Part shown: piece after piece, positions 3,257 through 59,974 of the stretch
Position numbering within the stretch: position 1 is the first letter of the stretch
Layout of the letters: each line of letters opens with the position of its first letter
Assembly: GCA_019113345.1 (NCBI GenBank)
Contig: DXHQ01000037.1
Span: 1 to 64,000, forward strand
DNA: 64,000 nucleotides
From: Candidatus Faecalibacterium intestinigallinarum
Lineage (GTDB): Bacteria; Bacillota; Clostridia; Oscillospirales; Ruminococcaceae
Direction of reading: 5' to 3'
The notes under the pieces: model-generated
What the model was told of the DNA's origin: nothing
The model's input: the letters and a program-made list of their open reading frames with translations, nothing else
The model's database searches: none
Program-made: the position numbers and the translations under genes

Positions 3257-5836
3257 ATGTCTTTACTGGTCGTTGACGGCAACAGCATCGCCAACCGCGC
3301 CTTTTTTGGCATCAAAGTCCTGACCACCAAGGAAGGACAGTACACCAACGCCATCTATGGCTTTATGAACATCCTGCTGTCTTTAACGCAGAACTATCAG
3401 CCGGACGAGGTCGCCATCGCCTTCGACCTGCCCGCCCCCACCTTCCGCCACAAAATGTACGACGGCTACAAGGCCAACCGGCACGGGATGCCGGAGGAGC
3501 TTGCGGCCCAGATGCCCCTGCTGCAGCAGCTCCTGACCGATCTGGGCTACAAACTGGTCACCGCCGAAGGGTGGGAGGCCGACGATATCCTCGGCACCCT
3601 GGCCGCCGCCTGCGACGCCCGGGGGGAGACCTGCTACATCGCCACCGGCGACCGGGACAATCTGCAGCTGGTCAGCCCCAACACCACCGTCCTGCTGGCC
3701 GCCACCTCGCGCGGGCACAGCGAAACGCGGGTGATGGACGAGGCCGCCGTCCGGGAAAAGTACGGCCTTGCGCCCAAACAGCTGATCGACGTCAAGAGCC
3801 TGCAGGGCGACGCCTCGGACAACATCCCCGGCGTCAAGGGCATCGGGGAAAAGACCGCCCTCGCCCTCATCCAGCAGTTCGGCAGTCTGGCCGGCGTCTA
3901 TGAGCATCTGGACGACCCCGTCATCAAGCCCCGGCAGCGGGCCAACCTCGAAGCCTACAAAGCCGACGCCGAGCTCAGCTATACCCTCGGCTCCATCCGG
4001 ACCGACGCCCCCATCGAGACGGCCGCGGGGGCCTACCGCCCCGGCGAAGGGGACAAGGCCGCCGCCGTCCGCCTGATGCTGGACCTCGAGATCCGGGCCC
4101 TCATCCCGCGGCTGGGGCTGGAACACGTGCTGCCCGCCGAGGACGAGCCGGCGCCGCCCGCCGCTCCCCTGCCCGCGGCGGAGGTCCGCTCCATGCCGGC
4201 GCGCCCCGCCGGCCTCTGGCTGCTGGCCGCCCGGCCCCCGGTCTACGGCAAGCAGGGCAACCGGATCATCGAGACCCGCCCCGCCCACTGGTACGCCGTC
4301 CAGGACCGGACCGTCTGCCCGCTGGCCGACGGCGAGCTGGCCCTGCTGCTGGACAATCCCGCCCTGCAGCTGGAAGTATTCGACGCCGCCCCCCTCTACG
4401 CCGCAGCCATGCAGGCCGGCGGCTGGGGCAGCGCCATCACCTGGGACGGCAAGCTGGCCGCCTACCTGCTGGACGCCTCGGCGGCCAAGTACAGCATCGC
4501 CGCCCTGGCCGAAACCTACCGGATCAAACCCGCCTTCACCTGCGAGGAATGGCCGGACGCCCCCTTGCTGGCCGGCCTTTTTGCCCGGCTGAAGGCCGAG
4601 ATCACCGCCCTCGGGCAGGACCGCCTTTACAACGAGATCGAGTTCCCCCTCGCGCAGGTGCTGGCCGACATGACCCGCACCGGCGTTCTGGTGGACAAGG
4701 CCGGCATCGAGCGGTTCGGCGCCGATCTGCACCGGAAGATCGAGGAAAAGCTGGACTACATCCGCGGCCAGGTGGAGGACCCCGACTTCAACCCCAACAG
4801 CCCCAAGCAGCTGGGCGAGATGCTGTTCGACAAGATGAAGCTGCCCCACGGCCGCAAAACCAGCCGGGGCTGGTCGACCGACAACGCCACCTTGCAGAAG
4901 CTGCGGCCCGACTGCCCCCTGATCGACGACATTCTGCAGTACCGCTCCTACCAGAAGCTCTACTCCACCTACGCCGAGGGGCTTTTGAAGGTGATCGCCC
5001 CCGACGGGCGGATCCACTCCACCTTCAACCAGACCGAAGCGCGCACCGGCCGCCTCTCGTCCGACAACCCCAACCTGCAGAACATCCCCATCCGCACCGA
5101 GCTGGGCAGCCAGCTGCGCGGCTTTTTCATCGCAAAGCCGGGCTGCGTCTTTGTGGACGCCGACTACAGCCAGATCGAGCTGCGCATCCTGGCCCACATC
5201 ACCGGGGACGAGCATATGCAGGCGGCCTTCCGGGCCGGCGAGGACATCCACCGCAGCACCGCCGCCAAGATCTACGGCATCCCGCTGGAGGAGGTCACCC
5301 CCCGGCTGCGCACCGCGGCCAAGGCCATCAACTTCGGCATCATGTACGGCAAGGGGGCGTTCAGCCTCTCGGAGGACCTGGGCGTCTCGGTGCGGGAGGC
5401 CGGCAGCTTCCTCAAAAGCTATTTTGCCAGCTTCCCCAAGGTGGACAGCTATATGCACAAGACCATCGCTGACGCCAAGGAAAAGGGCTATGTCAGCACC
5501 CTGTTCGGGCGGCGGCGGGCCCTGCCCGAGCTGGCCAGCTCCAACGTGAACGTCCGGGCCAGCGGCGAGCGGATGGCCCGCAACACCCCCATCCAGGGCA
5601 CCGCGGCCGACGTCATCAAGCTGGCCATGGTCAAGGTCTGGCGGCGCATCCGGGCCGAAGGGCTGCAGAGCCGGCTGATCCTGACGGTGCACGACGAACT
5701 GATCGTCGAGGCCCCCGAGGCCGAAGCCGAGACCGCCGCCCGCATCCTGAAAGAGGAGATGGAGGGCTGCGTCCGCTTCGCCGTCCCGCTGGACACCGAC
5801 GTCCATCAGGGAAAATCGTGGTTAGAAGCACACTAA
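3257..5836 (+). CDS. polA: DNA polymerase I
   Basis: 5'-3' exonuclease N-terminus (MSLLVVDGNSIANRAFFG) and PolA motifs (DADYSQIELRILAH, INFGIMYGKGAFSLS, LTVHDELIVEAPE). Confidence 0.97.
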   Translation: MSLLVVDGNSIANRAFFGIKVLTTKEGQYTNAIYGFMNILLSLTQNYQPDEVAIAFDLPAPTFRHKMYDGYKANRHGMPEELAAQMPLLQQLLTDLGYKLVTAEGWEADDILGTLAAACDARGETCYIATGDRDNLQLVSPNTTVLLAATSRGHSETRVMDEAAVREKYGLAPKQLIDVKSLQGDASDNIPGVKGIGEKTALALIQQFGSLAGVYEHLDDPVIKPRQRANLEAYKADAELSYTLGSIRTDAPIETAAGAYRPGEGDKAAAVRLMLDLEIRALIPRLGLEHVLPAEDEPAPPAAPLPAAEVRSMPARPAGLWLLAARPPVYGKQGNRIIETRPAHWYAVQDRTVCPLADGELALLLDNPALQLEVFDAAPLYAAAMQAGGWGSAITWDGKLAAYLLDASAAKYSIAALAETYRIKPAFTCEEWPDAPLLAGLFARLKAEITALGQDRLYNEIEFPLAQVLADMTRTGVLVDKAGIERFGADLHRKIEEKLDYIRGQVEDPDFNPNSPKQLGEMLFDKMKLPHGRKTSRGWSTDNATLQKLRPDCPLIDDILQYRSYQKLYSTYAEGLLKVIAPDGRIHSTFNQTEARTGRLSSDNPNLQNIPIRTELGSQLRGFFIAKPGCVFVDADYSQIELRILAHITGDEHMQAAFRAGEDIHRSTAAKIYGIPLEEVTPRLRTAAKAINFGIMYGKGAFSLSEDLGVSVREAGSFLKSYFASFPKVDSYMHKTIADAKEKGYVSTLFGRRRALPELASSNVNVRASGERMARNTPIQGTAADVIKLAMVKVWRRIRAEGLQSRLILTVHDELIVEAPEAEAETAARILKEEMEGCVRFAVPLDTDVHQGKSWLEAH

Positions 5837-5860
5837 AAATCACACCAAAGGAACGCGAAC

Positions 5861-6868
5861 ATGATCATTTTGGGAATCGAATCCACCTGTGACGAGACGG
5901 CCGCCGCCCTGGTCGAGGACGGGCGCACCCTGCTCAGCAACGTCATCGCCACCAGCGTCAAGGAGCAGGCCCTCTACGGCGGGGTGGTGCCCGAGATCGC
6001 CAGCCGCCGCCACTGCGAGTACATCAGCGCCGCGGTGGGCAAAGCCCTCGCCGACGCCGGCCGCACCATCGACGAGGTGGACGCGGTGGCCGTCACCTTC
6101 GCCCCGGGGCTGATCGGGGCGGTGCTGGTGGGGGTCAACTTTGCCAAGGGGCTGGCCTACGCGGCAAACAAGCCCCTGGTGCCGGTCCACCACCTGCGGG
6201 GGCACATCGCGGCCCTCTACCTGACCCACCCTGAGCTCAAGCCGCCCTTCCTCTGCCTGGTGGCCTCGGGCGGGCACAGCCACATCGTGCAGGTGGAGGA
6301 CTACACCCGGTTCCGCGTCCTGGGCCGGACGGTGGACGACGCCGCCGGCGAAGCCTTCGACAAGGTAGCCCGCACCCTGGGCCTCGCCTACCCCGGCGGG
6401 CCCAGCATCGCGGCCGCCGCCAAAACCGGCGACCCCCACGCCTACCGCCTGCCGGTGCCCCACGTCGAGGGCAAATACAACGTCAGCTTTTCGGGCCTCA
6501 AGACTGCGGTGCTCAACGAGGTCAACCAGGCGGGCATGAAGGGCCTGCCGGTCAATGTGCCCGACCTCGCCGCCTCCTTCCAGGAGCGGATCGACGGCAT
6601 CCTGGCCGAAAAGCTGCTGGCCGCCGCAGCCGACACCGGCGCCAGCCAGGTCTGCCTGGCCGGCGGCGTCGCCGCCAACGGACGGCTGCGCCAGCTGGTC
6701 AACGACGGGGCCCAGAAGCTGGGCGCGCAGGTCTTTCTGCCCCAGCTCAAGTTCTGCGGGGACAACGGCGCCATGATCGCCAGCCAGGGCTACTACGAGT
6801 TCACCGCCGGCCACACCGCCGGCCTTGACCTGAACGGCCTGCCCACCCTGCCGATCGATTATCAGTGA
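5861..6868 (+). CDS. tsaD: tRNA N6-adenosine threonylcarbamoyltransferase
   Basis: IILGIESTCDETAAALVEDGRTLLSNVIA..., GGVAANGRLR, CGDNGAMIA. Confidence 0.97.
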   Translation: MIILGIESTCDETAAALVEDGRTLLSNVIATSVKEQALYGGVVPEIASRRHCEYISAAVGKALADAGRTIDEVDAVAVTFAPGLIGAVLVGVNFAKGLAYAANKPLVPVHHLRGHIAALYLTHPELKPPFLCLVASGGHSHIVQVEDYTRFRVLGRTVDDAAGEAFDKVARTLGLAYPGGPSIAAAAKTGDPHAYRLPVPHVEGKYNVSFSGLKTAVLNEVNQAGMKGLPVNVPDLAASFQERIDGILAEKLLAAAADTGASQVCLAGGVAANGRLRQLVNDGAQKLGAQVFLPQLKFCGDNGAMIASQGYYEFTAGHTAGLDLNGLPTLPIDYQ

Positions 6869-6880
6869 GGCCATAAAAAA

Positions 6881-6917
6881 GCCTGTCTGTCCGGTTCACC
6901 GGGCAGGCAGGCTTTTG
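6881..6917. terminator. bidirectional intrinsic terminator between tsaD and the CPBP protease
   Basis: GCCTGTCTGTCCGG-TTCA-CCGGGCAGGCAGGC hairpin with flanking A and T tracts. Confidence 0.85.
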
Positions 6918-6920
6918 TTG

Positions 6921-7790
6921 TCAGGCCGTTTCTTCGGGCGGGGGCAGGCAGCGGGACCAGAAGGCGGCTATCTCGGGCAGGCGGCTTTTGCGCAGCAGAA
7001 AAACGGTGGGGACAAGATAGATCAGCGCCCCCCGCAGCATACTGGGGTCGTAGCTGCTGACCACCCCGCTGATGCTGCCGGTGCTCTGGTACAGCCCCAT
7101 GTTGATGAGGGCGGCGGTGTCCTGCATGGTGTGCAGAAAGACCAGCACCCACAAGTTGCCGCCGCGGAAATAGACGGCGGCGTACAGCATTCCGAGGGCC
7201 GCCGTGACGCAGCACTGCACCAGCACCCCCACCGGTGCGCTGGCCCGCAGGTTGGTCAGGTGCACCGCGCCGAACACAAGGCCCGAGAGCAGGCAGGCTT
7301 TCCAGACGCCGGCTGGCCCGGCGCCGAAGCGCTCCAGCAGCGTCTGGGCCACGACGCCCCGAAAGACCGTCTCCTCCGCCAGGCCGATCAGGAACATACA
7401 GAGGAAAAAGGCCGCGATCTGCCACAGCGGCTTGACCGCCGCCCCCTGCGCCGGGCCAGCCAGGGCGAGGTTGACGCTCAAGACCATGCTGACCATCACA
7501 AAGGAGAACATCCCCACCAGCAGCCCGTCCAGAAAACCGCGGCCCCGCTGGCGGCAGACCCACAGCCGCCCGGTCCGCCCCAGCAGGAACAGCCCCGCCA
7601 AAAGCCCAAACAGCTCGTTGACCGCTTGCAGCAGGAAGGTTTCCTGCACAAAAGGCCGGACCGCCGCCGGCCCCAGCAGCACCAGGACTAGCTCGAACAG
7701 GGTCATCCCCACTTCCATCGCCGCCAGAAACAGCACGGCGGTCAGGATACAGTAGCAAATCGGGTGCGCAGCCCGCAGTCGTTTCAGCAT
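6921..7790 (-). CDS. CPBP-family intramembrane metalloprotease
   Basis: multiple TM segments; EETVFRG motif and later conserved His region. Confidence 0.85.
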   Translation of the reverse strand: MLKRLRAAHPICYCILTAVLFLAAMEVGMTLFELVLVLLGPAAVRPFVQETFLLQAVNELFGLLAGLFLLGRTGRLWVCRQRGRGFLDGLLVGMFSFVMVSMVLSVNLALAGPAQGAAVKPLWQIAAFFLCMFLIGLAEETVFRGVVAQTLLERFGAGPAGVWKACLLSGLVFGAVHLTNLRASAPVGVLVQCCVTAALGMLYAAVYFRGGNLWVLVFLHTMQDTAALINMGLYQSTGSISGVVSSYDPSMLRGALIYLVPTVFLLRKSRLPEIAAFWSRCLPPPEETA

Positions 7791-7966
7791 TTGCAGCCCT
7801 CCCGGACGGTAAGATTCTGATACCTCATTGTATCACAAACGGGGCCGGAAAAACAGGGTCTTTCTTTTTTGCGCGCTCCGCCTCTGGCATTCCCCGCCGC
7901 AACGTGCTACAATAGAGGAAAAACAGAACGGCCCTGCAGGGCCGCGGCAGAAAGGAAGTTATCCCC

Positions 7967-8368
7967 ATGAGAATCGCAGTCACCTACGCAAACGGCGAAA
8001 TTTTCCAGCATTTCGGCCGCACCGAACAGTTCAAGGTCTATGACGTGGCAGACGGCAAGGTCACCCACAGCGAAGTGGTCGGCACCAACGGCCAAGGCCA
8101 CGGCGCTCTGGCAGGCGTCCTGCAGCAGCTGCATGCCGACGTTCTGGTCTGCGGCGGCATCGGCGGCGGCGCGCAGGCCGCCCTCGCGGCTGCCGGCATC
8201 CGGCTGTACGGCGGCGCGTCCGGCTCCGCCGACGCGGCGGTCGAGGCCCTGCTGGCCGGTCAGCTGGCCTACGACCCCGACGTCCACTGTGACCACCACG
8301 GCGAGCACCACCACGACGGCGAACACCATTGCGGCGAGCACCACTGCGCCGGCAACGGAGGGTGCTGA
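7967..8368 (+). CDS. NifX/NifB-like dinitrogenase iron-molybdenum cofactor domain protein with His/Cys-rich tail
   Basis: MRIAVTYANGEIFQHFGRTEQFKVYDV...; tail HCDHHGEHHHDGEHHCGEHHCAGNGGC. Confidence 0.85.
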   Translation: MRIAVTYANGEIFQHFGRTEQFKVYDVADGKVTHSEVVGTNGQGHGALAGVLQQLHADVLVCGGIGGGAQAALAAAGIRLYGGASGSADAAVEALLAGQLAYDPDVHCDHHGEHHHDGEHHCGEHHCAGNGGC

Positions 8369-14646: not shown

Positions 14647-14691
14647 TGGAGCTGCTATCCAGATTTGAACTGGAGACCTCATCCTTACCAA
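14647..14691. repeat. attL core (tRNA-Thr 3' fragment)
   Basis: tggagctgctatccagatttgaactggagacctcatccttaccaa, identical to 59899-59943. Confidence 0.97.
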
Positions 14692-19262: not shown

Positions 19263-19526
19263 TCATTCGTTTTTGATGTGTTCTTCCAGTGCGGTGATCC
19301 GGCGGTCGTGGTCCATGAGCTTTTCCTGCAGCCGCCGGTCGGCGTCTTTCAGCTCGGACAGGCTCTCGGTGTACCTTGCCTTGAAGTCTTCCAGGTTCGA
19401 CAGCAGCAGCTTGACCTGCCCGCTCAGCTCGTTGATGGTGCTTGTCAGCTTCACGATGGGCCCGGCCACGCTGGCCAGCAGGCCCACCAGAGCGACAACC
19501 ACCGTCACCACGCCCCACTCGGTCAT
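19263..19526 (-). CDS. phage TM/coiled-coil protein (hemolysin XhlA/holin-like)
   Basis: MTEWGVVTVVVALVGLLASVAGPIVKLTSTINELSGQVK... Confidence 0.6.
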   Translation of the reverse strand: MTEWGVVTVVVALVGLLASVAGPIVKLTSTINELSGQVKLLLSNLEDFKARYTESLSELKDADRRLQEKLMDHDRRITALEEHIKNE

Positions 19527-20155
19527 GCGACCTCCTTCCACCCTGCCGGGTATGCGTCGGGGGAGTACACGTTCCCATCCATAGTGGATTCGTACACTTT
19601 CCCGTTGTAGGTCACACGGTCGCCGACGCTATAAGCATCATGCGCCCCGGTGGGCTGCACGAATTCGGGGTACTCGGTCGGTTCAGGGTTCTCCCCACCG
19701 CCCGGCTCGGGTTCGGGCCCGGGTTCTGTGCTTTCCACAAGCTCCCAGCCCGCGGGGTAGACGTCCGGGGCCCAAACGTTGCCGTTGATAGTGGACTTGT
19801 ACAGCGTGCCGTTATAATCCACCACGTCGCCGATATTGTACGCATCGTGTGCGCCGCTGGGCTGGGCCCACAGCGGGACGCCGCTGTCGTTAAGACCGAA
19901 CGCCGTGTACAGGCTCTCGGTGCCCGCACCGGGCGGATACTGGCTCTGCGAGACGTGGCTCTGTGCCACCTTGTACAGCTGCGGGTCGCCCAGGTTGTTG
20001 ACGCCGTGGGAGATAATATCGCCGGCGCTGTAGCTAGTCTGCGAGGCCCATACGGGATAGACGGTCGCCACCTCAAGGGCTTCGGCGTCGGTCAGGGTCT
20101 TGACGAACATCTGCAAGGCTTTCCGCAGCTGTTCCGCTGCCTGCAATCTGGTCAT
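19523..20155 (-). CDS. tail-associated protein with two carbohydrate-binding (CBM5/12-like) repeats
   Basis: two copies of HDAYxxGDxVxYNGxxYxSTxxGNVxxPDxYPAGW plus a partial N-terminal copy. Confidence 0.8.
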   Translation of the reverse strand: MTRLQAAEQLRKALQMFVKTLTDAEALEVATVYPVWASQTSYSAGDIISHGVNNLGDPQLYKVAQSHVSQSQYPPGAGTESLYTAFGLNDSGVPLWAQPSGAHDAYNIGDVVDYNGTLYKSTINGNVWAPDVYPAGWELVESTEPGPEPEPGGGENPEPTEYPEFVQPTGAHDAYSVGDRVTYNGKVYESTMDGNVYSPDAYPAGWKEVA

Positions 20156-20452: not shown

Positions 20453-23400
20453 TTACAGTTTGGTCAGGTCGATGCAGATGGACGGCCGGAACCCGAGCGA
20501 GTTCGACTTGTAGTAGTCGTAGCCGCCGTCGCCGTAGAGGCGCCCACCCGAGTCCACGAACCACGCGCGGTCCGAGGAATACTTGGTCGATGTCCAGTAA
20601 ACAGATCCGACACTTCTCCGGCTATTACTATTAAAGTAACTGAAACCACCATTCATCTGATCCTTGGTAGCAACAAATACCTTACCAGAGGTGTTACCTG
20701 CGGTAACACTCTTCAGACAGTTCTTCTGTGCCTCATTCAACGAATTTGCGAAGTTCGTACATTTCTGCTGCAAGTCATACCAAGTCGAGTTGCCAGACAG
20801 ACCATTCAGCGTCAGGTAGGCTTCCGATGCGGTCTTGTGGGAGATAATCCACTGCTGGCCCGCAAAGGTCATGATGTCGCCGACGTTGCCGATGGCAAGC
20901 AACAGCAGCGTCCCGCCGGTGTAGTAGGTGCTGCCGTCGGTGCAGTAGTAGACGTCGGGCGCGTTCATGGCGTCCGGTGAGATAACGGCCTCGCTCAGGA
21001 CGTAGTAGGTCTCGCCGCCCGAACCGGGAATGGCGTACCGGTGCCAGGTCGGCTGCGCCTCGATCATGGCCAGCAGCGTCTCGTTGATGTTCGAGCCCGC
21101 GCTTACGCTCGTGCCCTGCGTGGTCACGTCGTAGACGGTCGCGGCCAGCGGCTGGAACAGCGCGGCCACGTTGGAGGTGTCCACCATCGTCAACGTCCGT
21201 CCCGCATACAGCGTGGTGCCCTGGTCGTCCTGGTACACGGGCCCGGTAAAGCTGCCGGTGCTCGGCTGGATGACGTCCTGCGCTGCGATGTAGTACTTGG
21301 TACCGTCGGTGCCCGTCAGCACGTAGTAGTTGTGGTTTGCGTTGTCCGCGATGATGGTCTCCAGCGCCTCCGTCTGGTCGGTCACGCTGGACGTGCTGCC
21401 GCCGCTGGCCGAGAAGACGTGCGGCTGCTCCAGCGCGGTGAACAGGGCGACAGGGTTGGTCACGATCTCTGCCTCAGAGTCCACCACGAACTTGAAATAC
21501 TGCACGATGGCCGCGTTGCTGCCGTTGAGCATGGCGGTGAACTTGTCCGCGCTTGCGCCAATCGTCACATTGCCGTCAAGTGTCTTGGCCGCACTGCTGC
21601 CAGCTGAGATAAGCACCATCGTAAAGTTTGTACTTCCTGCTGTGCTGTACACGCCGAAGCAGTAATGGACGCCGCTCTCGCGCGGGAGCTCAGTCTGTGC
21701 GCCCGCGCTGCCCAGATACACCGCGTCCACCTGTTCCAGATGCCCTGTCAGGCCCCTGAAGCTCTTTTCGAGGGCGTCGATGTCATTCTGGATGGAGACG
21801 CCGTGCTTCCCGATGACCTGCTGCGAGGTGGTGCGCGGGAAGATGGGATTCCCCTGGTCGTCCCGCAGCTGTTCAGCCCGGCCGCCGTCCGGCAAGGCGT
21901 TGAACGGGATGGCGAACTGCCACGCCTTGTTGGCGGGCAGCAGGTCGGTCTTTTCGGCCGTCATCTGGATGGTGTGCTGACCGCTGGCAAGGATGCGGGT
22001 GTCCACGCTGATTTCTGCGTTCTCGCCCTGGTCAAGGATAGCATCCAGAACCTTTGCACCGTCCATGTATCCGGTCACGGCGATGCCGGTCACGCCGGTC
22101 TGGCCGCTGACGCTGATGGCTGCACTAAGGGTAAAGGGCTTGATCTGCTGCCCCATCGCGGTATCAGGGCCGCCGATGGTGATCCAGCCGACATTAACGG
22201 CAGACTGTTCGCTGGTCACATACGGGCCAGATGCACCGTCATCGTCTACAGCCTTTGCCCGGTACGTTACCGTGCCCCAGTCGCTGCTGATATGGTCAGT
22301 GGTGCTCAGGGCGCTGGTGGTGGCGATGACGTCCCAGTCAGAGCCGCCGTCCACTCTGCGCTCATATACATAGTTTTCAACCGTGCCGTCGGAGTCGGTA
22401 GCAGCGGTGAGCGTGATGATTGCGTCCTGTCCGCCCACCACGTTGGTCACGTAGATGCTTCCTGGCGCTGTGGGCGGCTGGTTATGCACGACGGTATATG
22501 CCTCACTGGTCACATACGGGCCCTCTGCCCCCATGTTATCTACGGCTTTGGCGCGGTACGTCACGGTCGTCCAGCTGTCGTCGATGCTGTCCGTTGCTGT
22601 CAGGCTGTTGGCGCTGGAGAACTGGGTCCACTGGCCGCTATCGACCTTGCGCTCGTAGATGTAATTGGCGATGGTGCCATCCTCATCGGTCGCGGCTGTC
22701 AGGGTAACGGTCGATTGCTGATTGCCGATTACATTGCTCGCGGTGATGGAGCCGGGCGCGGACGGGGGCTGGTTCGTGATAACGGTACCATCATCCAGAA
22801 CGAAAAGGTCGTTCGGGAGAACGAGAACAGGGCGGATATAATGGCTTCTCGTTGTGTCCCCAGCGTTAAAGCCCTGGCTCATCCATGGATAGGAACCCCC
22901 ATCGGTGCAGTAGTATGCGTACTGGCCCGAGCTGGCCGGAGCTGGTGTGCGCAGCCACCAATCATTTCCGTTCAGGTTTCTGGCATCATCACCAGAACTT
23001 GCAAACCAGCTCAGTACCGTTCCTTCATCCGGCACACCGCTGTAGCCACTCGTAGCACTGAAGCCGACCTCTGCAAGGCTCAAAAGGAACACTTTGCAGC
23101 TCAGGCCGTTTGAACCTTGATTTACGCTACCCGCGCCGCCGTAGTCCACATCAGAAACATAAGGGATTTTGACCTGCTTGACGGCGGCTTGGATATCGGA
23201 ATCCAGCGTGTTCAAGTAGGTATTGTTCAGCCACGTGTGGATTTCACAGTCGTCCGGGTAGTTGTAGTAGCGTTCGCCGTTATCCTCACCCCAAATACGG
23301 GAAGAGTGTGCACCCTTCCTCACTAGCACGGTGCCGCCTTCAAATCCGGAGTATGCGCTGGACGGGCTGTTTTGATGAGCAACGACAAATTCCACAGGGG

Positions 23401-23464
23401 AGCTATTTTCGTTCAGTTTGACGGTACTGCCCACCAGCTTGGTGCTGAGTTTTACTAATGCCAT
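20453..23464 (-). CDS. large tail/receptor-binding protein: N-terminal DUF6273-like domain, two fibronectin-like repeats, C-terminal lectin-fold-like domain
   Basis: 1003 aa; WWLRTPAP...IRPVLVLP at N-term; tandem PPxAPGSI...YRAKAVD repeats; YWTSTKYSSDRAWFVDSGGRLYGDGGYDYYKSNSLGFRPSICIDL at C-term. Confidence 0.8.
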   Translation of the reverse strand: MALVKLSTKLVGSTVKLNENSSPVEFVVAHQNSPSSAYSGFEGGTVLVRKGAHSSRIWGEDNGERYYNYPDDCEIHTWLNNTYLNTLDSDIQAAVKQVKIPYVSDVDYGGAGSVNQGSNGLSCKVFLLSLAEVGFSATSGYSGVPDEGTVLSWFASSGDDARNLNGNDWWLRTPAPASSGQYAYYCTDGGSYPWMSQGFNAGDTTRSHYIRPVLVLPNDLFVLDDGTVITNQPPSAPGSITASNVIGNQQSTVTLTAATDEDGTIANYIYERKVDSGQWTQFSSANSLTATDSIDDSWTTVTYRAKAVDNMGAEGPYVTSEAYTVVHNQPPTAPGSIYVTNVVGGQDAIITLTAATDSDGTVENYVYERRVDGGSDWDVIATTSALSTTDHISSDWGTVTYRAKAVDDDGASGPYVTSEQSAVNVGWITIGGPDTAMGQQIKPFTLSAAISVSGQTGVTGIAVTGYMDGAKVLDAILDQGENAEISVDTRILASGQHTIQMTAEKTDLLPANKAWQFAIPFNALPDGGRAEQLRDDQGNPIFPRTTSQQVIGKHGVSIQNDIDALEKSFRGLTGHLEQVDAVYLGSAGAQTELPRESGVHYCFGVYSTAGSTNFTMVLISAGSSAAKTLDGNVTIGASADKFTAMLNGSNAAIVQYFKFVVDSEAEIVTNPVALFTALEQPHVFSASGGSTSSVTDQTEALETIIADNANHNYYVLTGTDGTKYYIAAQDVIQPSTGSFTGPVYQDDQGTTLYAGRTLTMVDTSNVAALFQPLAATVYDVTTQGTSVSAGSNINETLLAMIEAQPTWHRYAIPGSGGETYYVLSEAVISPDAMNAPDVYYCTDGSTYYTGGTLLLLAIGNVGDIMTFAGQQWIISHKTASEAYLTLNGLSGNSTWYDLQQKCTNFANSLNEAQKNCLKSVTAGNTSGKVFVATKDQMNGGFSYFNSNSRRSVGSVYWTSTKYSSDRAWFVDSGGRLYGDGGYDYYKSNSLGFRPSICIDLTKL

Positions 23465-23479
23465 GTTTTTCCTCCTTTC

Positions 23480-24055
23480 CTATTTTGCGGCTTTTTCATA
23501 GTCGAAGTACGGACAAGTTCTCACCGGGCGGTTGGGGTTGATGACGCTTGTGTTCTTCGGATGCCCGGCAAGATTCGGGATGGCAACATATACGTTCTCT
23601 TTGACCTGCTCAAGGAAACAGTAAAAAAATCCGTCATCCTGCTGGTCGTAGTAGTACGATCCTGGAAGCCTCAGCGCCTCGTACTCCCTGCGCTCATACC
23701 ACTCCACAAAGGCTTTTCCGATGGTTTTCGGGATATAAGTACACAGTAGGAATCTGCCCTTGGATGCAGGATAAATTCCGGCCTCGGCAATACGGGACGT
23801 CGTCGAGAATACGATCACGGTGTCGGAATGCCGGGCTATGTAGCTTTCTGCTCTTGCGCAAAAGTCATGGCACAAAAGCATATCATCCTGCACATATACA
23901 GCATCGTCATTCGCTACCTTGATGGCTTCGACAAAGGACTCCACCGCCCCGCGGTGCTCTACGTCGTTATAGATCAGCGCACCGGGGATGAGCCGTTCCA
24001 GGTACACTGTGTCCCGCTCGGGAACCTTTCGTATGACGTACTTCATTTCAGCCAC
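23480..24055 (-). CDS. phage glycosyltransferase-like protein
   Basis: 191 aa GT-A-like pattern with AVYVQDDMLLCHDF acidic motif; between tail fibre genes. Confidence 0.5.
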   Translation of the reverse strand: MAEMKYVIRKVPERDTVYLERLIPGALIYNDVEHRGAVESFVEAIKVANDDAVYVQDDMLLCHDFCARAESYIARHSDTVIVFSTTSRIAEAGIYPASKGRFLLCTYIPKTIGKAFVEWYERREYEALRLPGSYYYDQQDDGFFYCFLEQVKENVYVAIPNLAGHPKNTSVINPNRPVRTCPYFDYEKAAK

Positions 24056-24060
24056 ACCTT

Positions 24061-25062
24061 TCAGGTATAATCCGCGAGAGTCTCGCCGTAGAGCGTGTTG
24101 GGCTTCGGGCTGGCCGGGAACTGGCCGGTGTACTGAATGAAGCCGCCGGTCATATCGTCCGGCAGCACGCTCGGCAGGACTTTGCCGTTTTCGTCAAGGC
24201 CCGCAACGCCGCCGGGGACGTTGACTCGCATGGTGTTGCCCATGTTGACGATGCCGCGGCCGTCGCCGGGGTGCTCTTCGCTGCCCGAGATAAGGGCCAG
24301 TGTGGCGTTCATATCGTCGGCCGGGATGGCCTGCGCATAGAAGCGTGCGCTGCCTGCAAATGTCTGCATGATAGGGGCAACACCGGCTGCCGCCGCAGTG
24401 CCCAGGGCATCATCGTGCAGAGATGCCACCGGGAAGTGTGTAGCCAGTGCCAACGCGCAGGCAACATCCGCCTGGTAGTGATACAGCCCGGTTCCTCCCG
24501 GCACCCACGCGGAGGCGGGGATGGTGATGCCCACCACATCGGAGGCGCCGACCACACCATCAATCATGCTTTTCAGCAGGGCTTCAGCTTCTTCGGCGGT
24601 GATGAAGGCATCTGCCGTGTACTGCACGTTGACGTTGACCTCGTCCGCCACTACGATGGTAATGGGAAAGCGGCGGATATCCGGGGGCTGGCCAGGGCTA
24701 TAGGCGTTGACCCACTGCGGATAGTCGCCCAGACTGCCGTAATAAATCAGGGTCTCTTCGGACGTCTCGGTTTTGGCGAAGACGCCGTATTCGTTGAGGT
24801 AAAAACCTGCCGCCAGTGATCCGTTGAGGTCGGAACGGTACTCGATGGTCATGGTCACAGTGCTCCCGGAATGGACCGGGGTTGTGGACGTCGCGTAAGC
24901 CATCGGCGAGATCAGATCCGTCAGCGCCGCCATCTGGTCCAGATTTTCGGGTTTGCCGGTGCCCACCATCACCTTGGTGATGGTCAGGGTCTCTCCTGCA
25001 AGCAGACCCGCAATCAATTCACGGCCGGCAGTCGGGCTTGTAAAACCATAGATATTTGCCAT
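24061..25062 (-). CDS. phage tail fibre protein (P2 gpH-like N-terminus)
   Basis: MANIYGFTSPTAGRELIAGLLAGETLTITKVMVGTG...; downstream of gpI. Confidence 0.85.
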   Translation of the reverse strand: MANIYGFTSPTAGRELIAGLLAGETLTITKVMVGTGKPENLDQMAALTDLISPMAYATSTTPVHSGSTVTMTIEYRSDLNGSLAAGFYLNEYGVFAKTETSEETLIYYGSLGDYPQWVNAYSPGQPPDIRRFPITIVVADEVNVNVQYTADAFITAEEAEALLKSMIDGVVGASDVVGITIPASAWVPGGTGLYHYQADVACALALATHFPVASLHDDALGTAAAAGVAPIMQTFAGSARFYAQAIPADDMNATLALISGSEEHPGDGRGIVNMGNTMRVNVPGGVAGLDENGKVLPSVLPDDMTGGFIQYTGQFPASPKPNTLYGETLADYT

Positions 25063-42554: not shown

Positions 42555-42820
42555 GCTGTCATTTCATTCTGCAAAGTTAGTTGTAACGAAGTGTGAATTT
42601 TGTTGAATTTTTTTCGCAGAAAAGCATCGGGCCTTCCGTGCCCCGCAGGGCCAATCCCTCCAGGAAGGACCCGCGAAACAAAAAATAAAGCGCACAGGCC
42701 TGTTACAGCCTTCCGGGGCCTCCGACCTGGGCGGGCGCGAAGGGGGACGCCCGCAGCTCCCGGCGGTGGGAAAAGAAACCACCATGCGCTTTCGAGGTCC
42801 GGTTACGGGGTCCCGGATGC

Positions 42821-42894
42821 TGGCACGACGGGCAGGAGTCGAACCTGCAGCCCGCGGTTTTGGAGACCGCCGCTCTGCATTGAGCTACCGCCGC
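42821..42894 (-). tRNA. phage tRNA-Trp(CCA)
   Basis: GCGGCGGTAGCTCAATGCAGAGCGGCGGTCTCCAAAACCGCGGGCTGCAGGTTCGACTCCTGCCCGTCGTGCCA; cloverleaf with anticodon CCA and encoded 3' CCA. Confidence 0.88.
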
Positions 42895-57649: not shown

Positions 57650-57755
57650 CAACAGACCGGCTCCCCTCAAAGAGGATCGTCGCACAGCCCTAGACACTGT
57701 GAGTATACCTCTTTTTGGGTGGGTCTGTCAACCTATACCCAAAAGGAGGTTTTTT

Positions 57756-59177
57756 ATGGCGACCGTTGAAAAGCGGGGCAAAGGCTACCGCATCACGGTG
57801 GCGGCCGGCATCGGGCTGGACGGGCGGCAGATACGCCGCCGGACGATCTGGACGCCGGACCCCAAGATGACGCCCCGGCAGGTTGAAAAAGAACTGGCCC
57901 GGCAGGTGGTCAAGTTCGAGGAGCAGGTGAAGGCCGGCGGCGGGGGCGACGGCGGGAACATCCGATTCGCGGACTTCGCGGCCCGCTATATGGAGGAATA
58001 TGGCAAGCTCTATCTTAAGCCAACCACCCTGGCCAACTACCAGGGCTGCCTGGTGCGGATCAATCAGGCCATCGGGCACCTGCGGCTCAAGGACATCACC
58101 CCGCTGCACATCCAGGCTTTTTACCGCAACCTGCAGGAGGAGGGAGTGCGCCAGAAGGTCACCGCCCAGGCCACCCCTGCTCTGGCGGCCTGGCAGCAGG
58201 GGCAAAAGCTCTCTCAGGCCGAACTGGCCCGCCGGGCGGGTGTTTCCCGGCCCACGGTGGGGCAAGCCCTCAAGGGCCGCCCGGTCAGCCTGGACAGCGC
58301 CCAGAAGCTGGCCGCCGTCGCCGGGCAGCCGGTAGGCGTCCTGTTCCAGGTGCAGCCCAACACCTCCCCCCTCTCGGCGGCTACCATCCACGCTTACCAT
58401 CGGGTGTTGTCCTCCATCCTCAAGCGGGCAGTGCGGTGGCGCTGCATCCCTGCAAACCCCGCCGAGGGCGCCGAGCTGCCATCCCTTGCGGGCCACAGCG
58501 CCCACTACCTGGACGAGCCGGACGCCCGGCGGATGCTGCAGCTGCTCCTCTCCGAGCCCATCAAGTGGGCCGCGCCGGTGATCTTTGACCTGCTCAGCGG
58601 CCTGCGCCGGGCCGAGCTTCTGGGCCTGCGCTGGCAGGACGTGGATCTGGACGCCGGGCTGTTGCGGGTCGCCCAAAGCTGGAACTATGTTCCGGGCACC
58701 GGCACCTACATCAGCACCCCCAAGACCGAGGGGTCCATCCGCTGCCTGCGGATCTCCACGGCGGCGGTGGCCATCCTGCGCACCTACAAAACCTGGCAGG
58801 ACGGCCTGCGGTCATCCCTCGGGGACGCCTGGCAGGACACCGACGGCCGCGTTTTCACCAGCGAGATGGGGCGGCCCATCTTCCCCTCTTCTTTGACGGC
58901 ATGGCTGCGCAAATTCATCCGGCGCACCGGGCTGCCGCCCAGCTCGGTCCACAGCCTGCGCCACACCTACGCCAGCCTGCTGCTGGCTGAGCGCACCCCG
59001 CTGGTGGTGGTCGCCCACAACCTGGGCCACGCCCAGGCCAGCACCACCGCCAACATCTACGCCCACACCATCCAGTCCGCCGAGGTGGCCGCCGCCGGCA
59101 TCCTGGACCGCTTCGCGGACGGGCTGGCGGGGCAGGGTGAGGCTAACCGGGGCGAGAATGCGCAAAAATTCATCTAA
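57756..59177 (+). CDS. int: tyrosine recombinase (integrase) with inserted XRE-type HTH domain
   Basis: DLLSGLRRAELLGLRWQDVD, HSLRHTYASLLL, LGHAQASTTANIYAHT; internal SQAELARRAGVSRPTVGQALKG; RBS AAGGAGG. Confidence 0.95.
   Translation: MATVEKRGKGYRITVAAGIGLDGRQIRRRTIWTPDPKMTPRQVEKELARQVVKFEEQVKAGGGGDGGNIRFADFAARYMEEYGKLYLKPTTLANYQGCLVRINQAIGHLRLKDITPLHIQAFYRNLQEEGVRQKVTAQATPALAAWQQGQKLSQAELARRAGVSRPTVGQALKGRPVSLDSAQKLAAVAGQPVGVLFQVQPNTSPLSAATIHAYHRVLSSILKRAVRWRCIPANPAEGAELPSLAGHSAHYLDEPDARRMLQLLLSEPIKWAAPVIFDLLSGLRRAELLGLRWQDVDLDAGLLRVAQSWNYVPGTGTYISTPKTEGSIRCLRISTAAVAILRTYKTWQDGLRSSLGDAWQDTDGRVFTSEMGRPIFPSSLTAWLRKFIRRTGLPPSSVHSLRHTYASLLLAERTPLVVVAHNLGHAQASTTANIYAHTIQSAEVAAAGILDRFADGLAGQGEANRGENAQKFI

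Positions 59178-59898: not shown

Positions 59899-59974
<76 letters not shown>

Follow-up and report, generated by a model that had tools for sequence, protein, structure and literature searches.

Faecalibacterium phages frequently carry diversity-generating retroelements (DGRs) (PMC5883640, PMC11792537). Among the established targets of DGRs are DUF6273 domains, in which the variable region (VR) occupies the C-terminal end (PMC11792537). The tentaclins and DUF6273 targets of phages Brigit, Toutatis, Mushu, Lelie, nd4 and nd12 have an N-terminal DUF6273/C-type-lectin domain followed by Ig/Hoc-like repeats (PMC5883640, PMC10743442, PMC11792537); in the published account of tentaclin architecture, one phage protein (BK023705) carries an additional lectin domain at its C-terminus (PMC10743442). 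Descriptions of second or distal VRs exist as well, and in each case the VR was detected through its match to the template of the same phage (PMC11792537, PMC12629997). Phages Lelie, Lagaffe and CP11, and certain gut prophages (PMC12629997), have more than one lectin-type VR per phage. In the Mtd/DGR system of Bordetella phage BPP-1, the VR lies at the 3′ end of a tail-protein gene and adenine-type changes fall at the first two positions of NNC codons. The prophage adhesin considered here shares these features with its described counterparts, but its C-terminal variable segment (VR2) is accompanied by no DGR; in a limited search of the open-licence literature we came across no report of such a VR without a template.

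The window that we analysed is a 64,000-nucleotide stretch of Candidatus Faecalibacterium intestinigallinarum DNA (contig DXHQ01000037.1, positions 1-64,000), from a host genome that is a 2.2-Mb MAG, 92% complete; the relatives of the prophage likewise suggest a Faecalibacterium host. It holds a complete prophage of about 45 kb, bounded by identical 45-bp attL/attR repeats at 14647-14691 and 59899-59943 (the latter overlapping a tRNA-Thr gene at 59899-59974) and encoding an integrase (57699-59177, plus strand; PHROG 1, 6.3e-61). Its tentaclin-like tail adhesin of 1003 residues (20453-23464, minus strand) follows the tail-fibre gene, the same position as in the tentaclins, and is homologous to those of Brigit, nd4 and nd12. 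The protein has an N-terminal DUF6273 lectin domain (residues 58-217; 22814-23293, minus strand; Pfam 9.5e-29), continues through Ig/Hoc-like repeats, with a PHROG Hoc-like family match across residues 71-329 (3.7e-72), and finishes, at the residues YWTSTKYSSDRAWFVDSGGRLYGDGGYDYYKSNSLGFRPSICIDLTKL, in a second, lectin-like domain, where tentaclins have an anchoring Ig domain with a consensus motif. Two genes downstream of the adhesin (19523-20155, minus strand) lies a gene whose product has three stretches matching carbohydrate-binding module family 5/12, and the same MAG encodes a second DUF6273 tail-type protein (contig C112:2341-3006), 38% identical to part of the adhesin; the 9 kb inspected at that locus contain no template pair.

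Taken alone, the C-terminal 150 or so residues have no convincing Pfam match. A profile of this domain, built from the window and from the sister phage described below, matched the DUF6273 domains of related DGR targets (probability 79.5%, E=1.5e-5), and in that alignment the variable ends fall in register; an AlphaFold model from the two-sequence alignment was unusable (pLDDT 36). The domain has an AT-rich 5′ part (residues about 899-961; 20582-20770, minus strand; GC 0.435) and a variable half (20453-20581, minus strand) set in a conserved frame (TATTCCTCGGAC ... GGGTTCCG ... stop), which for VR2 reads TATTCCTCGGAC..CGCGTGG..CGTG ... TCGGGTTCCG. The variable core, VR2, spans residues 966-990 (20495-20569, minus strand).

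The sister phage is the IMG/VR contig IMGVR_UViG_3300035365_000039 (here L010; 46,104 bases), the one relative of the C-terminal domain that searches returned. We read it as complete and circularly permuted, because its ends overlap by 12 bases at window positions 42632-42643 and the beginning of the att core lies within it; a tRNA-Trp (cca) gene within the prophage (42821-42894, minus strand) adjoins the opening point of this circular contig. In a blastn comparison with the window, L010 shows 99.8% identity across 5150 nt, a stretch that closes with the tail-fibre stop codon at 24061. Beyond that point similarity is nil until the Ig-like repeats start at 22774, and thereafter it is 86% overall. 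The L010 stretch that faces this exchanged module (22774-24061, minus strand) is 5150-8186, and it contains an intact DGR just upstream of the adhesin: Avd (phrog_3206, 8.7e-20), a template at 5985-6114 and an RT within 6302-7504 (phrog_1423, 5.1e-115). The template writes the N-terminal lectin domain, whose VR (8008-8134) matches it with adenine-only mismatches and a one-codon length difference, and not the C-terminal segment; the sister has its RT and its N-terminal VR where the tentaclins have theirs. In the slot of the sister's Avd, template and RT the window has an ORF of 191 residues (23480-24055, minus strand), which has no family match to set beside the sister's phrog_3206 Avd and whose only relative, a distant one, is in Microbacterium phage Hendrix (25% identity, E=1e-5). 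The window's N-terminal DUF6273 domain also differs from that of L010 and, unlike the sister's, gave no template match in its own genome region, the window. Each phage thus either has or lacks, as a single module, the DGR together with the domain that it targets. This is a natural swap between close sisters, of a DGR with its N-terminal target against the ORF with a DGR-free DUF6273 domain.

It is comparison with this sister that bears out the preliminary description of an orphan DGR-like variable region at the end of the gene. That description had drawn on ten consecutive NNC codons, which are indeed present at the gene end on the minus strand, with the caveat that the host favours C-ending codons; the caveat was well placed, for elsewhere in the gene 47% of codons have C as their last base, and the NNC run is weak evidence by itself that we do not use in isolation. 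The sharp change in composition is likewise borne out: GC is 66% in the variable segment and 44% in residues 899-960 (about 20770-20582). At 14 proven DGR loci the GC content of the VR minus that of the preceding 200 nt ranges from -0.01 to +0.13, so the jump at VR2 comes mostly from an unusually AT-rich neighbour.

The substitution pattern between the window and L010 is more telling. Residues 669-898 contain five differing sites in 230 codons, and identity then breaks abruptly at residue 899, a sharp, recombination-like boundary at the start of the AT-rich part which points to recent domain exchange. In residues 899-960 the differences by codon position are 14/17/33, and 20 of the 41 shared residues use different codons, whereas in residues 961-993 the differences are 10/7/2 and another codon is used in one of 17 shared residues; the Ig-like part gives 48/32/125. 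The two parts of the domain differ both in codon-position pattern (Fisher p=0.0014) and in silent change (p=0.002), values to be read with the segment limits having been drawn from the same alignment, and with two alleles and one relative behind them. In the core, 12 aligned codons vary (CGC/AGC, TTC/AGC, GAC/CGC, TCG/TAC, GGT/GAT, CGC/TAC, GGC/AAC, GAC/TAC, TAC/GAC twice, AAC/AGC and CTC/ATC); in 11 of them the third base is unchanged, and in four the first and second bases both differ. The exception at the third base, TCG/TAC, and a 9-nt length difference within the core mean that different templates, or another process, are needed to account for the two alleles.

Proven DGR variable regions served as positive controls. 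In all DGR phages of this group that were examined, and in several same-genus chromosomes, we found template/VR pairs in which, over 60 nt, the 8-16 mismatches all fall at adenines. Allele pairs of proven VRs differ by 11/8/0, 6/5/0, 8/8/0, 13/12/3, 8/8/3 and 9/7/3 at the three codon positions, although these pairs are of common ancestry and hence not independent; the first three diverge ordinarily upstream, as in the 11/8/0 pair, which shows 8/2/22 outside the VR. On its sequence VR2, with variation at codon positions 1 and 2 in a conserved frame between its two alleles, behaves like these proven pairs, and also like two diverged DGR domains (L086/L084) whose figures are given below. The variation scattered over all codon positions that the preliminary description had expected if no DGR were at work is not what we see. 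The proposed adenine dependence of VR2 is deduced from the codon pattern. Against the template of two related DGRs (L085/L093), 13 of 14 ungapped VR2 codons agree, in that codons with a template adenine vary and those without one stay constant (p=0.0023, a guide value, as the alignment was picked by eye). We looked for a stem-loop of the BPP-1 type downstream of VR2 and found none; such stem-loops are present at three C-terminal VRs of same-genus DGRs (L096-L098; longest stems 9 and 10 bp), but most N-terminal VRs of related DGRs are without one, and a stem-loop is therefore not a strict criterion here.

The preliminary description had also reported no RT or template between attL and attR, which our searches uphold and extend: in the prophage we found neither the RT nor the near-identical template that would make a complete DGR, and neither it nor the MAG, at 92% completeness, has an RVT_1 match. 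The whole window gave no adenine-type template for any stretch between 18.0 and 29.3 kb. A template for VR2 was likewise sought in vain in the whole L010 genome, in the MAG (by BLAST and by pattern), in 31 same-genus genomes (DNA search), in 398 genomes of the family (frame pattern, three mismatches allowed), in IMG/VR (several frame patterns, exact frame needed) and in phage or plasmid records. The template of L010 was ruled out as the source, as it does not match VR2, and it has no match anywhere in the window. The MAG and same-genus genomes also gave short, weak DNA matches (15-29 nt); the five such loci inspected encode unrelated proteins or share GGCGACGGCGGC-like strings. The IMG/VR frame-pattern matches (L073-L080) proved unrelated, bar a loosely similar lectin-like tail end near position 2930 of L073 (WYWTSTPC...DAAWCVGSVNG...YYVRPVRS), which was reached solely through the frame pattern. 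Such a lack of RT and template in the genome had been named beforehand as evidence against a variable region, and it holds for the assembled 92% of the MAG; with exact-frame scans of IMG/VR, at most three mismatches in the family scan and 8% of the MAG missing, absence of a template is not proven. We call VR2 an orphan because neither of the two complete phage genomes carries a template for it. The earlier suggestion of a DGR whose RT and template were lost is borne out insofar as the sister has a DGR in the slot of the 191-residue ORF, but the sister's template fits the N-terminal domain and not VR2.

We consider it probable (roughly 60%) that the segment is a genuine orphan DGR-type VR on a recombined C-terminal lectin-like domain, and that it is now probably frozen in this prophage. 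Counting against this are the two alleles on which the comparison stands, the lack of a template and of a stem-loop, and the lack of a Pfam match for the C-terminal domain alone. The failure to find a template anywhere, the two alleles, the clear recombination boundary at residue 899 and the strong use of C-ending codons (47%) would also suit an origin without any DGR: recombination would have exchanged two alleles of a C-terminal lectin domain, diversifying selection would have acted on the binding residues, and codon bias would have lent them their NNC look. Selection on amino acids, however, fails to explain why silent changes are one in 17 here beside 20 in 41 within the same domain, or why in four codons the first two bases were both altered and the third was not; the variable codons, moreover, sit where related templates have adenines. 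We therefore think it unlikely that the pattern arose without a DGR.

The same two alleles could possibly result from rewriting in trans, which the preliminary description had also proposed. The RT and template that still diversify VR2 would then belong to the host chromosome or to a second phage in the same cell, and lysogeny or co-infection would refresh the segment. At its silent sites the VR2 frame is conserved, despite the diverged 5′ half of the domain, as recent copying from one shared template would give. DGR RTs, moreover, are no rarity in this genus: 13 of 31 genomes have an RVT_1 match of some kind, and eight match the sister's RT. Yet no template was found in the MAG, which is also RT-less, in the same-genus and family genomes or in IMG/VR, and VR2 lacks the downstream stem-loop; conserved VR frames in diverged domains occur between ordinary cis-acting DGRs too, as in L086 and L084, where the VR differs by 12/11/7 and silent changes are 2/22 in the VR against 33/79 upstream. 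Continued rewriting in trans is accordingly improbable in our judgement, and it is just as doubtful that this phage lineage would use its own DGR for one lectin domain while another genome served the second. It is far less likely still that VR2 was once served by a further template or DGR in the phage ancestor, lost since in both lineages. Faecalibacterium phages with two-VR DGRs are known (PMC11792537), but those systems use a local template matching both VRs, whereas the single template of L010 misses VR2; neither complete genome holds a remnant, and independent loss in lineages 99.8% identical nearby is an extra assumption.

For the orphan VR that we favour, a DGR in related phages would have written the variable half by adenine mutagenesis, and the C-terminal domain would then have been acquired recently from such phages by recombination, leaving the template behind. 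Separately, the Avd-template-RT block with its N-terminal lectin domain and the DGR-free module would have been swapped for one another. The prophage may thus display a fixed variant of a putative receptor-binding domain, altered by domain exchange rather than by hypermutation of its own.

Such an arrangement sets the adhesin apart from the described systems. It differs from the tentaclins by an extra C-terminal lectin-like domain with a variable segment of its own, and by the lack of a DGR. It departs from phages with second or remote VRs in that the sister's template does not match VR2 and no template was found in the window prophage. Compared with BPP-1, no RT, template or downstream stem-loop was found here, nor an Avd among the window ORFs scanned, and the domain resembles DUF6273.

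Large surveys of DGRs seek an RT near a template and target, so that variable regions which outlive their machinery, or travel without it, go uncounted. In this sister pair, a DGR comes or goes with the domain that it targets as a unit of exchange, and beside it stands a second VR with the same mutational fingerprint, for which no template was found. If VR2 is frozen, ready-made hypermutated binding domains would be spreading by recombination; if instead it is rewritten in trans, phages could borrow the diversification machinery of another genome.
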